Positions 20,632-28,799 of a stretch of 64,000 nt of DNA are shown here, piece by piece; within the stretch, counting starts at the first letter, position 1, and every line of letters begins with the position of its first letter. The notes beneath the pieces are model-generated. The model saw only the letters and a list, made by a program, of their open reading frames with translations, searched no databases and was not told where the DNA came from. The position numbers and the translations under genes were made by a program. Source of the DNA: Rosistilla oblonga (GTDB lineage: Bacteria > Planctomycetota > Planctomycetia > Pirellulales > Pirellulaceae); NCBI RefSeq assembly GCF_007751715.1, contig NZ_CP036292.1, positions 4,285,339 to 4,349,338 on the forward strand, given 5' to 3'.

Positions 20632-23600
20632 TCAAACCGTTGGGTCGATGACGGCGGCGAGGATCTTGCCGTCCCCTTTGCCATCCACGTCGTGACTCAG
20701 TTCCGCGGTCCAGCGATGGCCGGCCATCGCTGGCAACTGGGCCAGCAAGTTGCCGGCGATTTCGGCTGTCGCTTGTCCCTCGCCGTCGCAGGCGGTGACG
20801 CGGACGTTTTTCCAGTCACCCAACAGCCCCAGTCCGGTCGCCTTGGCGACTGCCTTCTTCGTCGCCAGGATCGCCGCGAAACAGCGCTCACGGTTTTCGC
20901 ACGCCGACAACAGCGAGACCTCTTCGGGCAGCAACGCCTCTGCAAGCTGAGCCTCTTCGACCTCGGCGATCGGATGAACCGCAACGCCAACGCGGCGGGC
21001 TGTCGACGCAATCGCGTAGCTGATTTTGTTGCAATGAGCTACCGAGATGTTCGGCATCACCGCGTCGGCCGCTGGTACATCACCTGCGCTTGGATGTTGA
21101 GCTCGCCGTGGCAACGCATAGGGTCGGCCGTTGCCATCGTGCCGCGTGTCGATATCGGACATGTACAGCCGCTGACCGTGCTGTTCATGCCACAACCGTC
21201 GGACTGCATCTTTGGCGACGACGCGGCCAAAGACCCAGCGAACCTTTTCGGCGTGAGGGATTTGCGCGTCGATGAAGTCTTCGTATTCCTGTTCGCTCAA
21301 CAACACTTCGGCTGCCGCTCGCAACAGCGTCGGTTGCGACAGGTCGTCCAACCAAGCGAACCGCGCCGTGGCGATCGCATCGTCCGCCGCCGAAGCCTGC
21401 GTCGCAAACTCTTCCGACAAATGGTAGACGTTTTTGGGGCCGTGGAAATTGACTTCGTGAAACGGCAGATAGAAACGCCACAGTCGAACGCCGTTGATGC
21501 GATTCCAAACGCGTCCCTCGCTGTCGATCGAAACGACCGAATGAGTGAAGTGCCGCGGCGATTGCTCGTCCAAACTCCCGTGGCATTCAAACCGCGTTCC
21601 CACTGCGGGGCGAGGCCCGAAGAACTCGACACTCTTCACCACAAACGGCAACATGATCCGCCCAGTCTGATCGGGCTGTTCCAGATGCCAGGCCGCATTG
21701 GGATGCATCGCGACATCCAACAGGACCGGATCGCCAAGGAATTCGACCGGCCGATCGTCGCGGAACAGCTCATCCCGCGGCAGGACTTCGATCGTCGATT
21801 CGATTCCTTGTTTGCCGATCTTCGCCAGGCTGCGGACGCCCTGAAACAATTCGCCGTGAAACAAATTGTTATACATCGTCTTCAGCGTCGTCTCACACTG
21901 CTGAGCGTCGGTCAGTTCCAACGGCTGGCCGAGCGGAGCTTCCGGATACGCAGCGGCCAGGGTCACGGTGCCAACAGCCGCCAGCTTCGGTTTGTCGCCA
22001 AACGGCTCTTCCCGATTCCCGGTGTCCATCACACGGACCAGCACGCGCGTCGTCGCGTCATCGTCCGTCGGCATCAAGGTCGCTTCGATCCGGATCGTGA
22101 TCGGATCGCGCTCGTAAAACGCCAACCATCGCGACAACTGGACTCGGCTGATCGAACAGACGACCAGTTCGGGAGCCAGCTGCAGCGCCGCCTCCATCAT
22201 CATCTCCAGCGTGAACGTCATCGGCATCACCGGCAGCCCACATTGCTCGGGCCGGATCGCGCTCACCTCGCGGCCGCCGACGGTGTGATGCGTCGCGTAA
22301 TGTTCGATCGCGGGATCGAGCAGCCGATGCATGACCAGATGCATTCCAGGTTCAAACTCGCTGACTTCGCCCAACAGCGGCAATTCGGGACGGGGCAATC
22401 CTCCGTCGCCGCTCGCCGCTGCCTCAAACGCATGCTCATCGCCCGACCACAGACTTTCATCCGCCAGAATGTCGTCGGTGGGAAGCGCCGCCGCGGCGGC
22501 CAGGCGACGTCGCGATCGATTTCCGGCCGTCGCACGTCGTCCGCCGCGAGGACCGATCGTCCGCCCCGCGTTCTTGGCGACGAGAAACTGCTGCATCACA
22601 TCGCTCTGTTCCGCCAGCAACTGCTGCATCGTTTCCAGATGAGACGACATCACCGAGTCGCTGCCAGGAGCGATCGCTGCGGCAACCTCTGCGCGCGGCG
22701 ACGGCTGAACAAAGGAATTCCCTTGAGCCTGTCGGAACTGCGGATCCAACGCCTCCAATTCGATCGGAACGTGATGCGCAGCCAACTGAGCCGCGGCGTG
22801 GACGATCTGATCGGCGGTCGACAAACGGGGCGTGTCCATCGGGATCGCCGCATGCGGCTGGCCTCGCAAGATATCAGCGACAAAGGAACTGATATTCCCC
22901 CGCGGGCCAACTTCCAGGAACAGCCGCACACCGTCGGCGTACATCTGTTGAATCAGCGATTGGAACCGGACCGGGTTGTGCCAATGAGCCAACGAGAGCT
23001 GGCGGATCTGGTCGCTGTCGTCGGGGAAACGTTCGCCGGTGGCACACGAATACAACGGCACATCGGGCGATCGGAATCCAACGCGATCGAAGGCGGCACG
23101 CAGCGGGTCCATCAGCGGCGCGAACATCGGCGTGTGGTAGGGCTGCTGCAGCGAAAGCGCCTCGACGATCCAGCCCGCTTTTTCGATCGTCTCACGAACG
23201 CGCCGCGTCGCTTCGCGTCGGCCGACCACGATCGATTGATGCGGGCAATTGTCCATCGCCACCATCGCCTGGTCGCTCATCCCCGCCGTCGCCAACGCTT
23301 GGAAGACGACAGGTTGCACCTTGTCGGCGGCCGCGGCAACGGCCAACAGTTCCGCGTCGCCGCCGCCCGACTGAACCTCCATCTGGTTCATCACATTGGC
23401 AAACATCGGCAGTTCCGTCGTCAACTCCATCGACCCCGCGGTCATCAGTGCCGCCAATTCGCCGGCGCTGTGACCGGCGGCGGCTTGCATCGGCACGCCC
23501 AACATCTTGGCAACTTCGCTCAAGCACCAGCCCGCGCTCAAGACGCTCAACATCGCATTGTCTAACCGACGCAACAACTGTTCGGCTCGATCGCGATCGT

Positions 23601-24051
23601 CCTGCTGCCAACCATCGATAAAGTAACGCAGGCTGTGGAACGGCGGGCCAATCTGACGGGCAAAACCGTCGCACTGTTGGAGCACCGATTCGACTTCGGG
23701 CCACTGGGAATCGAGTCCCTGCAGCATTCCCAGGTATTGAGCCCCTTCGCCGGGAAAGAGCCACGCGATCCCACCGGACAAACCGAGCGGTTCGGGATAA
23801 TAATAGATCCCGCCGACATCGTGGATCGGTTTGCCCGGGCGTCGCTCCAAGCGATCGGCGGCGCGAGTCGCCAGCAGTCGCAGCGCTTCCTCGCCGTCGG
23901 CCACGATCAACAACCGCTCAGGAGCATGCGAATCTGAAGTTGCCGATTCCCCACCAGCCAACGCTCTCAGGTTCGCAACCAATTGAGGTTGCGATTCGGC
24001 CGCGATCACATACGGTTTCAATCGGTCGGAGCTTGCGTTGGTATCGGTCAT
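20632..24051 (-). CDS. Orphan acyltransferase - dehydratase-like - phosphopantetheinyl-transferase-like fusion
   Basis: A 1139-residue cytoplasmic protein. Residues about 95-410 are an AT domain: FPGEGAQYLGML (99-110), nucleophile motif GHSAGE (193-198, Ser195) and a later PYHTPMF with the partner His. Residues about 420-540 are a basic, low-complexity linker. Residues about 540-900 look like a double-hotdog dehydratase (HTVGGREVSA followed by LPVMPMTFTLEMM). Residues about 930-1130 resemble a 4'-phosphopantetheinyl transferase (GRPYAL, ISVAHCNKI, then KKAVAKATGLGL in place of the usual KEA). No ketosynthase or ACP gene is nearby. It resembles a subunit of PfaA/HglE-type iterative polyketide or polyunsaturated lipid synthases. 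The gluconolactonase gene lies 21 bases upstream. Confidence 0.8.
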   Translation of the reverse strand: MTDTNASSDRLKPYVIAAESQPQLVANLRALAGGESATSDSHAPERLLIVADGEEALRLLATRAADRLERRPGKPIHDVGGIYYYPEPLGLSGGIAWLFPGEGAQYLGMLQGLDSQWPEVESVLQQCDGFARQIGPPFHSLRYFIDGWQQDDRDRAEQLLRRLDNAMLSVLSAGWCLSEVAKMLGVPMQAAAGHSAGELAALMTAGSMELTTELPMFANVMNQMEVQSGGGDAELLAVAAAADKVQPVVFQALATAGMSDQAMVAMDNCPHQSIVVGRREATRRVRETIEKAGWIVEALSLQQPYHTPMFAPLMDPLRAAFDRVGFRSPDVPLYSCATGERFPDDSDQIRQLSLAHWHNPVRFQSLIQQMYADGVRLFLEVGPRGNISSFVADILRGQPHAAIPMDTPRLSTADQIVHAAAQLAAHHVPIELEALDPQFRQAQGNSFVQPSPRAEVAAAIAPGSDSVMSSHLETMQQLLAEQSDVMQQFLVAKNAGRTIGPRGGRRATAGNRSRRRLAAAAALPTDDILADESLWSGDEHAFEAAASGDGGLPRPELPLLGEVSEFEPGMHLVMHRLLDPAIEHYATHHTVGGREVSAIRPEQCGLPVMPMTFTLEMMMEAALQLAPELVVCSISRVQLSRWLAFYERDPITIRIEATLMPTDDDATTRVLVRVMDTGNREEPFGDKPKLAAVGTVTLAAAYPEAPLGQPLELTDAQQCETTLKTMYNNLFHGELFQGVRSLAKIGKQGIESTIEVLPRDELFRDDRPVEFLGDPVLLDVAMHPNAAWHLEQPDQTGRIMLPFVVKSVEFFGPRPAVGTRFECHGSLDEQSPRHFTHSVVSIDSEGRVWNRINGVRLWRFYLPFHEVNFHGPKNVYHLSEEFATQASAADDAIATARFAWLDDLSQPTLLRAAAEVLLSEQEYEDFIDAQIPHAEKVRWVFGRVVAKDAVRRLWHEQHGQRLYMSDIDTRHDGNGRPYALPRRAQHPSAGDVPAADAVMPNISVAHCNKISYAIASTARRVGVAVHPIAEVEEAQLAEALLPEEVSLLSACENRERCFAAILATKKAVAKATGLGLLGDWKNVRVTACDGEGQATAEIAGNLLAQLPAMAGHRWTAELSHDVDGKGDGKILAAVIDPTV

Positions 24052-25270: not shown

Positions 25271-25558
25271 AAGCCGGAGGCTGGCACACGAACTGCCGGC
25301 GGCATAAGCCGCCGGTAATGAAGGTCGAGTCCCCGACTAGGCCGGAGGCCGGCACATGGACTACACACATGTGTCGGCCTCCGGCCTAGGGATTGGTGGT
25401 TCTGCGGGTACCGGCGGCTGACACCGCCGGCAGTTGGTGTGTCGGCCTGCGGCCTAGGGATTGGTGGTGCTGCCAGTACCGGCGGCTTACACCGCCGGCA
25501 GATCGAGTCATTCCGGCGGCTGACACCGCCGGCAGTTCGTGTGACGGCCTCCGGCCTT
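25271..25558. repeat. REP-like palindrome array, left block
   Basis: Contains 46-bp composite units made of hairpin A (CCGGCGG...CCGCCGG) and hairpin B (GGCCGGAGGCC plus GACACA). One forward unit is at 25271-25316 and reverse units are at 25410-25455 and 25512-25557. There is an extra A hairpin at 25478-25500. A head-to-head B pair lies at about 25339-25388. Confidence 0.88.
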
Positions 25559-25665
25559 ATGAATGTTGACACAATCGGCTGATACTTTGAGGCACGGGGG
25601 ATTTCATGAGCCGTAAAAATCTCATTCTCCCACCTTGATCAGGTACTGCACCAAGAGCGGCTTGC

Positions 25666-25805
25666 AGGCCGGAGGCCGAGACAACTAATGCCGGCGGTGT
25701 CAGCCGCCGGTGGTCAAGGCCGGAGGCCGACACAACTAGTGCCGGCGGTGTAAGCCGCCGGTTCTCAACTGGTCGGTTTTTCAACAAGGCCGGAGGCCGA
25801 CACAA
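25666..25805. repeat. REP-like palindrome array, block next to the transposase 3' end
   Basis: Two forward 46-bp units at 25666-25711 and 25717-25762, plus a lone B element at 25787-25805. The last lies 73 bases from the transposase stop codon. Confidence 0.88.
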
Positions 25806-25877
25806 GGAATGCCACCGAGCCAGCCGGGTACAAGCAGCGATCGAAGGTCGGCCAATGCAGCTCCCTAAACCTTCGGA

Positions 25878-26330
25878 CTACTCCCAAACTCGCGCTGGAT
25901 CGAATTCAATCTCATGTTTTGCCAATAGCGCGAGATACTCATCCTGGAAGGTCTGTTTCGCATGATGTGTCAACTGATTTTCGATATACCTGACAACCCT
26001 GTCGACTTGAGAAGGGCTAACCGTAAACGCGCCGTAGCCATCTTGCCAATGAAACTTGAGTTTTCCCGCTCGCGCGTCGTTAACCTGACGACTTGAATTA
26101 GACTTCAGCGCTCCTACAAAATCGGCAACCGCGACTTTAGCTGGAATCCGGACCAGTACGTGCGCATGGTCGTAGAAGCCACCAATTTTGATCGCGAACC
26201 CTTCCAGATTTTTTGCGATCCCAGCCATGTACGACCAGACTTGGGCGCGAAGCGCATCGTCTTGCAACAACGGGCGTCGATCCTTCACGCTGAAGACGAT
26301 GTGATAGAGCAACTGTTGATGCGTGGACAT
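25878..26330 (-). CDS. IS200-type Y1 transposase, REP-associated (RAYT-like)
   Basis: A 150-residue single-strand HUH transposase. It shows the HUH motif as DHAHVLV (about residues 54-60) and the conserved WQDGYGAFTVSPSQ followed by RYIENQLTHH, where the Tyr of RYIENQ is the candidate nucleophile. FQDEYLALL-x-KHEIEFD closes the protein. Length is typical of Y1 TnpA. GGTGGAGA precedes the ATG. It is surrounded on both sides by the 46-bp palindromic units, with no cargo gene and no TnpB. That layout matches the REP/RAYT arrangement known in other phyla, in which the enzyme processes dispersed palindromes rather than moving as a normal IS. That role here is inference. Confidence 0.88.
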   Translation of the reverse strand: MSTHQQLLYHIVFSVKDRRPLLQDDALRAQVWSYMAGIAKNLEGFAIKIGGFYDHAHVLVRIPAKVAVADFVGALKSNSSRQVNDARAGKLKFHWQDGYGAFTVSPSQVDRVVRYIENQLTHHAKQTFQDEYLALLAKHEIEFDPARVWE

Positions 26331-26466
26331 GCTGTTTCTCCACCGGAATCAATTGGTGTCGCGATACAATATTGTTTAACGAATCCAGCCTACACCGCTT
26401 CAACCTAATGTTAATAGTTTTTGAGGCAAATTTGATTGATCGCTTACCGGGATTCAACACTTGATT

Positions 26467-26996
26467 GTGCCGGCCTCCGGCCTAGGGAGTTTTCTTGGTC
26501 CTCCACATACCGGCGGCTTACACCGCCGGCAGATCGTGTGTCGGCCTCCGGCCTGGGTGGTTGCTGAAACATGTCCTTGAGTTTGGTGTGGTCGGGCAGC
26601 CGGGGGACTCGGTGCGCTGAAGGTATGTTGGTCGCCCCTCGTTTAGCACTACAGACAAGCGCAGTTTTTTAGGCCGGAGGCCGACATAACTAATGCCGGC
26701 GGTGTGAGCCGCCGGTAGCCAAAGCCGGATGCTGATCCAGGCCGGAGGCCGACACAAGGAATCCAAGAATGTGTCGGCCTCCGGCCTTGGGGGAGTTCTT
26801 GCTCGGCCGCCAACCGGCGGCTTACACCGCCGGCAGTTCGTGTGCCAGCCTCCGGCCTGGTATTTTCCTATCATAAAATCATACCGGCGGCTTACACCGC
26901 CTACAGATCGTGTGTCGGCCTGCGGCCTGAGACTTTGCTAATCGCCATATACTGGCCGCATACGCCGCCGGAACTGGATTTGTCGGCCTACGGCCT
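26467..26996. repeat. REP-like palindrome array, right block
   Basis: A lone B element at 26467-26483. 46-bp composite units at 26509-26554 (reverse), 26671-26716 (forward), 26813-26858, 26883-26928 and 26951-26996 (reverse, the last two degenerate in hairpin A). A perfect 18-bp head-to-head B pair at 26739-26787. The rest of this gene-free stretch, including about 26555-26670, shows nothing recognisable. Confidence 0.88.
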
Positions 26997-27026: not shown

Positions 27027-28799
27027 CTACAGGCTGCGCAGGAAGGTCAGCAGATCTTCGAGGTCGGGTTGAGAGAGCGGTTTAGAGAGGGTGTGCTTGT
27101 GCTCGGTGAAGACAGCTTCTAACGATTCGGCTCGCAGGTCGTGGAAGTAGCGTGGGCCGCGCTGGCCGACGCCCAACAGCGATGGCGGGTTGAAGCGGGT
27201 GTGGCCGAGTTCGTCTTCGAGCCCGACGTCGTACAATTCCGCTGAGGTGTATTTGCTGCCGGCGTGGCAATCGTTGCAGCCTTGGCGTTGGAAGATCGCT
27301 TGGCCGCGCGCGATCGATTCGCCGACTTCGGGAATCGATGCGTCGACGACCGGTGGCGGTGGGACCAACGATTCCAGAAACGCTGTTAGCTGAGTCACCT
27401 GTTCGCCGGTGAGCTTATTGTGCCCCTGCATCGTCGTGCGGACGGTCCGCTGCAGTTGAGCCTCCAACTTTGCGTCGGCACCGATCCAGCCGAAGGGAGC
27501 CGTATCGGCGCGGCCCAGCAGCGAGAGCACTCGTTTGGGCGAGGTGTACGCGCCGTCGCTGAGATTATCCGCTCGTTCGTTCACCGCGTGGCCGCCGGGA
27601 TGACAACTGGAACAACTCATCCAACCGTCGTGGGCCAGCGACGCGTTGTGAAACAGACGTTCGCCGAGTTCGGCCGTCGTTGGAGTCCAGCCTTCCGACA
27701 AGCGAACTGTTTTCAATACGCTTCGCTCGCCGATGTCGATCTGGGTCAACGAATCGTCCAAACGATTGACGACCCAACCGGTCTTGCCGCGGCTATCGAC
27801 AGCAACCGCTACGGGATTGATGCCGACGGGCAGCCGCGCTAATTCGTAAAACTCTTCGTGTCCGATCGCTACTTCGTTCGCTCCGCCCAACGGAACGATA
27901 ACGATCCCGTCGACGGTGCAGACGAGATCGTTCGGATCGGCGCCTCCCTGCCCAACAATCCCGATCGGATCGATGTGCCCATCTTTGTAGAAATTCTCTT
28001 CGTCGGCTTCCATCACACGGCCGCGGTCCAACCAACGCAGATCGTTGGAAACCATCATGCCCCAGTGGATGTCGTTGTTCGATGATTGGGCGGCGGAGTT
28101 GAGCATCTGGTGCGAAACGATCAACCGCTTGCCGTCGGGATCGTCGACCATCCCGCGGATCCGATGCCCGTAGAATTCGATCTGGCGGAGTTGTTCCCCG
28201 GTCGACGCGTCCAAGTAGGCGATCTGGCTGCCAAACGCATCGACTGCCAACACGACGTTCTCCGGCTGCAACAACCGCAGTGTCTTGGGAGAGAAGTTTA
28301 GATTCTGAGTCCAGACCGGACGCGCCGGTTCGTCGATTGCGGGGCGAGCCACACATGTCACCTGACGACTCCACAGCCCCGCCACCAACAACTGGTTCGC
28401 TTCGCCAGCGATCACCGAAACGGGACTTCTCACACAATCGATCGTCGACTTGGCGATCAGCTTGCCAGCTTCCAGATCGATCTCGATCAAACGGTCACCC
28501 GCGGTATCAACCGCCCAAGCAGTCCCGCCAGGCAGGCGTTCGATCGCTGTTAGGTCGCCCCCGACAGTCAAGCGGGTTTTGACCGCTCCACTCGTGCTGT
28601 CCAACGCCAACACCTCGCCGCTGCGTTGGCAAACGACCAGCAACGTTTGGTCGTTGTCGAAGAAACAGGCATCGACTGGGCGAAGCGGCTGAGCGGCCTC
28701 GCTAGCACCAGCGAATCCAGCAACAACCAACAAAAACGTTCCGATCAAACGCGGGAGAAATCGGCAACGAGCGAGGGTGGGGAGAGAATCGCAGCGCAT
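27027..28799 (-). CDS. Secreted beta-propeller protein with two c-type haem sites
   Basis: A 590-residue protein with a signal peptide (LIGTFLLVVAGFAGASEA). Residues about 40-380 form a YVTN/NHL-like propeller (VCQRSGEVLALDSTSGAV and similar blades). The C-terminal part has two CxxCH motifs: CSSCH (Cys396) and CNDCH (Cys508). FNPPSLLGVGQRGPRYFHDLRA matches the di-haem cytochrome c peroxidase/MauG-like family tail. It likely transfers electrons or oxidises a substrate in the periplasm. It is separated from the upstream lipoprotein gene by a terminator, so probably has its own promoter. Confidence 0.87.
   Translation of the reverse strand: MRCDSLPTLARCRFLPRLIGTFLLVVAGFAGASEAAQPLRPVDACFFDNDQTLLVVCQRSGEVLALDSTSGAVKTRLTVGGDLTAIERLPGGTAWAVDTAGDRLIEIDLEAGKLIAKSTIDCVRSPVSVIAGEANQLLVAGLWSRQVTCVARPAIDEPARPVWTQNLNFSPKTLRLLQPENVVLAVDAFGSQIAYLDASTGEQLRQIEFYGHRIRGMVDDPDGKRLIVSHQMLNSAAQSSNNDIHWGMMVSNDLRWLDRGRVMEADEENFYKDGHIDPIGIVGQGGADPNDLVCTVDGIVIVPLGGANEVAIGHEEFYELARLPVGINPVAVAVDSRGKTGWVVNRLDDSLTQIDIGERSVLKTVRLSEGWTPTTAELGERLFHNASLAHDGWMSCSSCHPGGHAVNERADNLSDGAYTSPKRVLSLLGRADTAPFGWIGADAKLEAQLQRTVRTTMQGHNKLTGEQVTQLTAFLESLVPPPPVVDASIPEVGESIARGQAIFQRQGCNDCHAGSKYTSAELYDVGLEDELGHTRFNPPSLLGVGQRGPRYFHDLRAESLEAVFTEHKHTLSKPLSQPDLEDLLTFLRSL

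Follow-up and report, generated by a model that had tools for sequence, protein, structure and literature searches.

What kind of system is formed by a single Y1 transposase gene embedded in a cluster of palindromes, and what could its enzyme act upon? The question is raised by a locus in the window, i.e., the whole 64,000-nucleotide stretch of the Rosistilla oblonga genome (G000; a single contig of 7.25 Mb) analyzed here, which a preliminary description had read as a REP/BIME architecture with its dedicated transposase. The island comprises ten 46-bp two-hairpin units (four on the forward strand and six on the reverse strand), one Y1 HUH gene and a set of single-hairpin fragments (Table 1). 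Extraction of the units bore out the layout first described: both orientations occur, every full copy is exactly 46 bp long, the head-to-head pair has perfect 18-bp arms and the Y1 gene is the only credible gene within the island. Positions 20632-24051 encode a protein of 1139 aa that combines acyltransferase, PKS dehydratase and phosphopantetheinyl transferase domains and belongs to a PUFA- or polyketide-synthase-like cluster; the protein encoded just beyond the island (27027-28799) has a di-haem cytochrome c peroxidase domain and a cytochrome c domain.

Table 1. Features of the island, in window coordinates.
Position	Strand	Feature	Basis
25271-25316	+	full two-hairpin unit, 46 bp	extraction and alignment of units
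25339-25356	+	lone hairpin A	
25370-25387	-	lone hairpin A, head to head with 25339-25356	
25410-25455	-	full two-hairpin unit, 46 bp	extraction and alignment of units
25478-25500	-	lone hairpin B	
25512-25557	-	full two-hairpin unit, 46 bp	extraction and alignment of units
25666-25711	+	full two-hairpin unit, 46 bp	extraction and alignment of units
25717-25762	+	full two-hairpin unit, 46 bp; start 51 bp past the preceding unit (25666-25711)	extraction and alignment
25787-25805	+	lone hairpin A (truncated unit)	
25878-26330	-	Y1 HUH transposase gene, 150 aa (P0001), TnpA-Y1 subclass 1.2 type	Pfam, equivalogs, alignments, structure model
26467-26484	-	lone hairpin A	
26509-26554	-	full two-hairpin unit, 46 bp; top genome match to the covariance model, 77 bits	
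26671-26716	+	full two-hairpin unit, 46 bp	extraction and alignment of units
26739-26787		hairpin A head-to-head pair; perfect 18-bp arms 26739-26756 / 26770-26787	
26813-26858	-	full two-hairpin unit, 46 bp	extraction and alignment of units
26883-26928	-	full two-hairpin unit, 46 bp; one arm of hairpin B damaged	
26951-26996	-	full unit, degenerate, 46 bp	extraction and alignment of units

Read in the A-to-B direction, the window unit consists of hairpin A (AGGCC-GGA-GGCC, with a core stem, GGCC-GGA-GGCC, of only 4 bp), a 13-nt linker (GACACAnnnnnTG) and hairpin B (CCGGCGG-TGTAAG-CCGCCGG). Folded as single-stranded DNA, it yields exactly these two hairpins (z -2.97), and an Rfam search returned sub-threshold chance matches only—hence no known RNA. 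DNA mini-hairpins whose loop is GNA or GNNA and whose closing pair is G-C are, as published, extraordinarily stable (PMC4686876). Since the GNA loop of A and the GNNA loop of B lie on the same strand, the unit has a defined strand; moreover, these loops being among the most stable known in DNA argues that selection sees the unit folding as single-stranded DNA. The stem of hairpin B was further assessed at sites picked by hairpin A alone, where its fifth pair is T-A in 39 cases, C-G in 23, G-C in one and A-T in one in the R. oblonga genome, and T-A, C-G or A-T in two congeners, where no more than two cells are mismatched; CCGTTGG/CCAACGG and CCGGGGG/CCCCCGG variants occur in relatives. Compensatory change therefore supports the B stem where B played no part in site selection.

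The protein encoded within the island, P0001, matches Pfam PF01797 (89.8 bits) and the IS200 equivalog (68.1 bits, above the cut-off of 55), and stays below the cut-off of REP_Tyr_transpos (31 bits versus 80). It displays a DHAH (HUH) motif at residues 54-57, a WQ pair, Tyr115 within YIENQLTHH and a C-terminal tail of the form F..EY..LL..H.I..D. Its structure model (pLDDT 89.6) adopts the HUH-Y1 fold, with TnpA of IS608 and ISDra2 as the best PDB matches—these two are also its nearest relatives in sequence—and the RAYT structure 4er8 ranking only 30th. Across 61 aligned sequences, H57, W95, Q96, Y115, Q119, H122 and H123 are invariant, and D54 and H55 almost so; all 61 match the IS200 model, 37 of them matching the REP model as well (E ≤ 0.001). 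Quentin et al. (2018; PMC6006769) describe TnpA-Y1 subclass 1.2 as proteins of about 150 aa with WQ, Y---Q--HH, DH[IV]H and a C-terminal tail of about 30 aa, present as few divergent copies per genome, mainly in Cyanobacteria and Bacteroidetes; the text of that survey has their genes generally devoid of terminal IS200 structures, and its table 1 gives 'no' for REP. P0001 has the WQ and Y---Q--HH motifs, the tail and the low copy number of this subclass, and deviates at the u position of DHAH, normally V or I but here a small residue: the window-type enzyme and its close relatives have DHAH or DHMH, as against DHVH or DHIH in the majority of other subclass 1.2 proteins. As judged from its sequence, P0001 is of the TnpA-Y1 subclass 1.2 type and not a RAYT/TnpA-REP by family, so the RAYT membership first proposed does not stand.

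Membership in class 2 (RAYT) was rejected on account of YIENQ in the place of Y---NP, together with the REP_Tyr_transpos score; TnpA-Y1 class 3 was likewise rejected by motif, NHVH, YV[VI]xEQ and the CnGA foot all being absent. Like a class-2 RAYT gene, the window gene occurs once and is bordered by dispersed palindromes of its own, and this REP-like dispersal, the presence of one gene among the repeats and an NTAG foot on hairpin B in many relatives would all agree with a RAYT/REP system exactly as in gammaproteobacteria. We nevertheless regard such an identity as very improbable, given the lack of Y---NP, the REP_Tyr_transpos score far under its cut-off, the low rank of 4er8 and a repeat that bears an extra GNA hairpin at fixed spacing.

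The distribution of the unit was explored through whole-genome searches and individual stretches, using a covariance model built from the ten window units (threshold, E ≤ 0.01). This two-hairpin model gave 138 matches in approximately 27 clusters over the chromosome, and hairpin A, with at most two mismatches, occurred 139 times, as compared with seven occurrences of a reversed control pattern—counts that are far above chance and exclude confinement of the unit to the window island. Inside the clusters, tandem neighbors are 67-72 bp apart (mode, 69) and head-to-head neighbors 27 bp. One cluster site (L207:9160-9440, at ca. 1.545 Mb) has window-type units lying between inverted parts of a GCCGC-type family with AGCCTGCGGCGCGAGCC, a BIME-like nested mosaic located where synteny with the congeners breaks; as a candidate empty site, its right flank had no match in the congeners.

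The genome carries five Y1 genes, and reading of their flanks placed each within its own island of differently sequenced two-hairpin repeats. Besides the window type (AGGCC-GGA-GGCC plus CCGGCGG-TGTAAG-CCGCCGG), these repeats are GTCGC-GAA-GCGAC plus CCTGGGA-CGCAAG-TCCCAGG; GCCGC-GGA-GCGGC plus a CCTGGcGGC-type hairpin; GCCCC-GTT-GGGGC plus CCCAGGGC-GTT-GCCCTGGG; and GGACC-GAA-GGTCC plus AGGCC-GAT-GGCCT. The five genes are mutually divergent, and no duplicate gene-bearing copies, as expected of multi-copy IS200/IS605 elements, were found in this genome.

The association between enzyme and hairpins extends well beyond this species. One genome per species was scanned by protein alignment across 84,980 species, giving 80 loci, many of them on MAG contigs, that a single peptide motif picked out and that were ordered by their similarity to P0001. 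Judged by record titles, they represent some ten phylum-level groups (Planctomycetota, Verrucomicrobiota, Bacteroidota, Acidobacteriota, Deltaproteobacteria, Ignavibacteria, plus four groups contributing one locus each), a sample without Cyanobacteria, a main host group of subclass 1.2. Most scans demanded perfect stems, and GNA-triloop hairpins, counted at stems of at least 5 bp, reached 2.20 per kb within 1 kb of the gene versus 0.25 per kb beyond 2 kb (330 in 150 kb near the genes versus 65 in 256 kb far from them). Other triloop classes differed by only 0.5- to 2.1-fold between near and far. The GNA profile peaks at 5.66 per kb within 250 nt of the gene and falls to background by about 1 kb, with near exceeding far at 66 loci and the reverse at four (p = 1.7e-15). 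A second hairpin was found 3' of the GNA hairpin only, its start offset by 12 nt in 61 cases, 13 nt in 17 and other distances in few. Strict composites of both hairpins numbered 132 beside 121 subclass 1.2 genes, versus one in 245,595 bases of far flank and none in shuffled sequence; around 45% of subclass 1.2 loci lack a strict composite, some of them merely through a shorter stem, and the window family is missed by the filter because its A stem has 4 bp.

The 81 distinct units, drawn from 47 loci, have a 12-nt linker in 54 cases and an 8-bp B stem in 64, and their four-base B loops are mostly GNNA. At the foot of hairpin B, 52 of them carry NTAG (GTAG in 18). The motifs had been called unlike the GTAG-type REPs, which is true of the window family, where hairpin B is preceded mostly by CTG or ATG, but not of the wider family, with its usually NTAG and often GTAG foot. 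The 8.6-fold enrichment of GNA hairpins and the fixed two-hairpin unit beside the genes thus depart from the published lack of REP association for subclass 1.2, and the initial remark that such systems are rarely discussed in planctomycetes is an understatement: the pairing is wider than planctomycetes, with relatives in many bacterial phyla. Among open papers, we found none describing repeats for subclass 1.2; some of the GTAG repeats that Di Nocera et al. (2013) assign to families in R. baltica may be B halves of units of this kind.

Could these hairpins simply be the end structures of an ordinary IS200-like insertion sequence, with the scattered units representing solo ends or MITE-like remnants of whole-element transposition? 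The closeness of P0001 to IS608 and ISDra2 TnpA in sequence and fold, and its score above the IS200 equivalog cut-off, fit this explanation, as do the subterminal hairpins that IS200/IS605 elements are described as carrying (PMC6006769). However, each Y1 lineage is present in single copy and, in contrast to IS copies, those sharing a genome have low identity to one another; the island occupies the same place in three species; and the units far outnumber the genes and mostly converge on them (70 oriented towards the gene versus 20 away). Additionally, in a control of about seven true subclass 1.1 loci, some of them duplicates, GNA hairpins were near background. An ordinary insertion sequence is, on this evidence, an unlikely source of the repeats.

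Comparison with related genomes indicated how closely repeat and gene travel together. The orthologue of the window gene (97% identity in two congeners, G001 and G002) keeps the window repeat, and the orthologues of a second (96%, G001) and a third Y1 type (98.7%, G002) keep theirs, while more distant Y1 types (33-57% identity) have different repeats. This pattern is the one-enzyme-one-repeat rule known from REPtrons. Among 60 genomes, matches to the unit model were most numerous in G000 (93), G001 (87), G002 (82), G029 (57) and G014 (55), the lower end being formed by G016 (19), G035 (4), G026 and G021 (2 each) and G012 (1). The gene in unit-bearing genomes shows 58-97% identity, with a fragment of 63% in G021 and one of 45% directly beside the unit of G012. 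The expectation that unit copy number tracks the transposase was upheld in that all seven relatives with a close homologue (one a fragment) have unit matches, versus two of the 52 others (Fisher p ~ 1e-7), but it breaks down in G014 (L256-L258), whose 55 window-type matches coexist with three Y1 genes of other types and no close homologue. Similarly, another repeat family, with 36 copies where its enzyme is present, persists at 7 and 16 copies in congeners that lack the enzyme. Both cases look like orphan repeats left after gene loss. A Y1 gene of G002 (G002:C1:1051834-1052262, in L242) contains one internal TGA and still lies amid GCCGC-GAA-GCGGC repeats, i.e., a decaying pair.

Most clusters are syntenic in the three congeneric species and differ mainly by whole tandem units. 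At one orthologous site (2.992 Mb), R. oblonga has three window-type units, G002 has the GTCGC-GAA-GCGAC family instead and G001 has neither; the flanks are 97% identical in G002, and 72% and 85% identical in G001. Finding two unrelated families in the same place favors insertion over slippage, with gain and loss unpolarised. The same region (L213:8050-8122) holds a further high-copy repeat, CACCCTCCCCCAAACGAAGTTTGACAGGGGAGGGTCGAACCAGCG..., of about 69 nt in arrays spaced by ca. 180-194 bp, which itself bears a GAA-triloop hairpin and has many matches in G001 and G002.

These site differences also bear on a passive origin, in which tandem slippage, gene conversion, or selection for a role in ending transcripts or as nucleoid sites would spread and maintain the units, and the Y1 gene would just happen to reside among them or bind them without moving them. 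The 69-bp tandem period and the whole-unit differences at orthologous clusters would suit such a scheme, and intergenic GC-rich hairpins could end transcripts. Yet it leaves unexplained why, across phyla, hairpins should be densest in the 250 nt next to one gene family, why the unit is retained by orthologues and changed in paralogues, and why a single site in sister species holds two unrelated families; the loop rules, moreover, fit single-stranded DNA stability. We therefore consider passive spread improbable.

The locus is probably best understood as REPtron-like but based on another transposase subclass, with a single-copy single-stranded DNA transposase that would act on composite two-hairpin units. 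The REP/BIME reading of the preliminary description is retained in this sense: dispersal, architecture and tracking with the gene agree with it, but the enzyme family is not RAYT. Against the REPtron-like interpretation count the whole-unit differences at syntenic clusters, which slippage or recombination can produce without an enzyme, the units of G014 and those of another family persisting in the absence of their enzymes, the subclass 1.2 loci devoid of a strict composite and the DHAH motif of P0001.

Under the REPtron-like interpretation, and by analogy with IS608 and TnpA-REP, a vertically inherited subclass 1.2 enzyme would recognize the unit folded in single-stranded DNA, the exposed template of the lagging strand being the likeliest place. 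From 5' to 3', this unit has a short GC hairpin A capped by a GNA triloop, some 12 nt of linker and then hairpin B, which is longer and has a GNNA-type loop. Cleavage would proceed through Tyr115 at a position adjoining the folded unit, close to a hairpin foot, and the strand would be rejoined elsewhere, which could seed and reshuffle units in intergenic DNA; the gene, with units converging on it from both sides, would not move. The constant spacing might allow the two hairpins to occupy both sites of a single TnpA dimer, and, with each enzyme matched to its own unit, five parallel pairs would coexist in the genome. A bolder and more tentative generalization is that subclass 1.2 might represent widespread, domesticated single-stranded DNA transposases, so far substrate-less, whose substrate is a pair of unlike hairpins with GNA and GNNA loops; one unit would then occupy both sites of the dimer, such that the 46-bp element could be mobilised alone rather than as a pair of ends. 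These results provide a concrete, strand-specific candidate substrate for a widespread transposase subclass that had none, making its function directly testable, and a new repeat type of two hairpins with a fixed 12-nt linker and highly stable DNA loops. They also offer a natural experiment, with five enzyme-unit pairs in one genome and orthologues and orphan repeats in congeners.

Set against known systems, the proteins resemble TnpA-Y1 subclass 1.2 as surveyed (PMC6006769) in WQ, Y---Q--HH, DH-u-H, a length of about 150 aa, a 30-aa C-terminal tail and few divergent copies per genome, and differ from the survey's 'no' for REP in that, in Planctomycetota, Verrucomicrobiota, Bacteroidota and others, the genes lie amid repeats of two hairpins. 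REPtrons (RAYT/TnpA-REP with GTAG REPs, as in E. coli and Stenotrophomonas) share the single-copy Y1 gene amid dispersed palindromes, the one repeat family per transposase and, in most relatives, a B foot (NTAG) resembling the GTAG guide of REPs; unlike REPtrons, the protein here lacks Y---NP and the repeat has two unlike hairpins about 12 nt apart, with GNA and GNNA loops, instead of one. With IS200/IS605 elements (IS608, ISDra2), the fold and catalytic motifs are shared, and one-strand hairpin recognition would be expected here too, whereas the gene is not in mobile multiple copies and the units converge on it and are also dispersed without it. TnpA-Y1 class 3, from Planctomycetes and Acidobacteria, is similar in its atypical hairpins near the gene, high copy number and overlapping host phyla, but not in the motifs and foot that define it (PMC6006769). 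Finally, mosaic clusters, head-to-head pairs and the nesting of different families recall BIMEs and REPINs, from which the present system differs in that the element repeated, at a tandem period of 69 bp, is itself a pair of dissimilar hairpins arranged in direct order.
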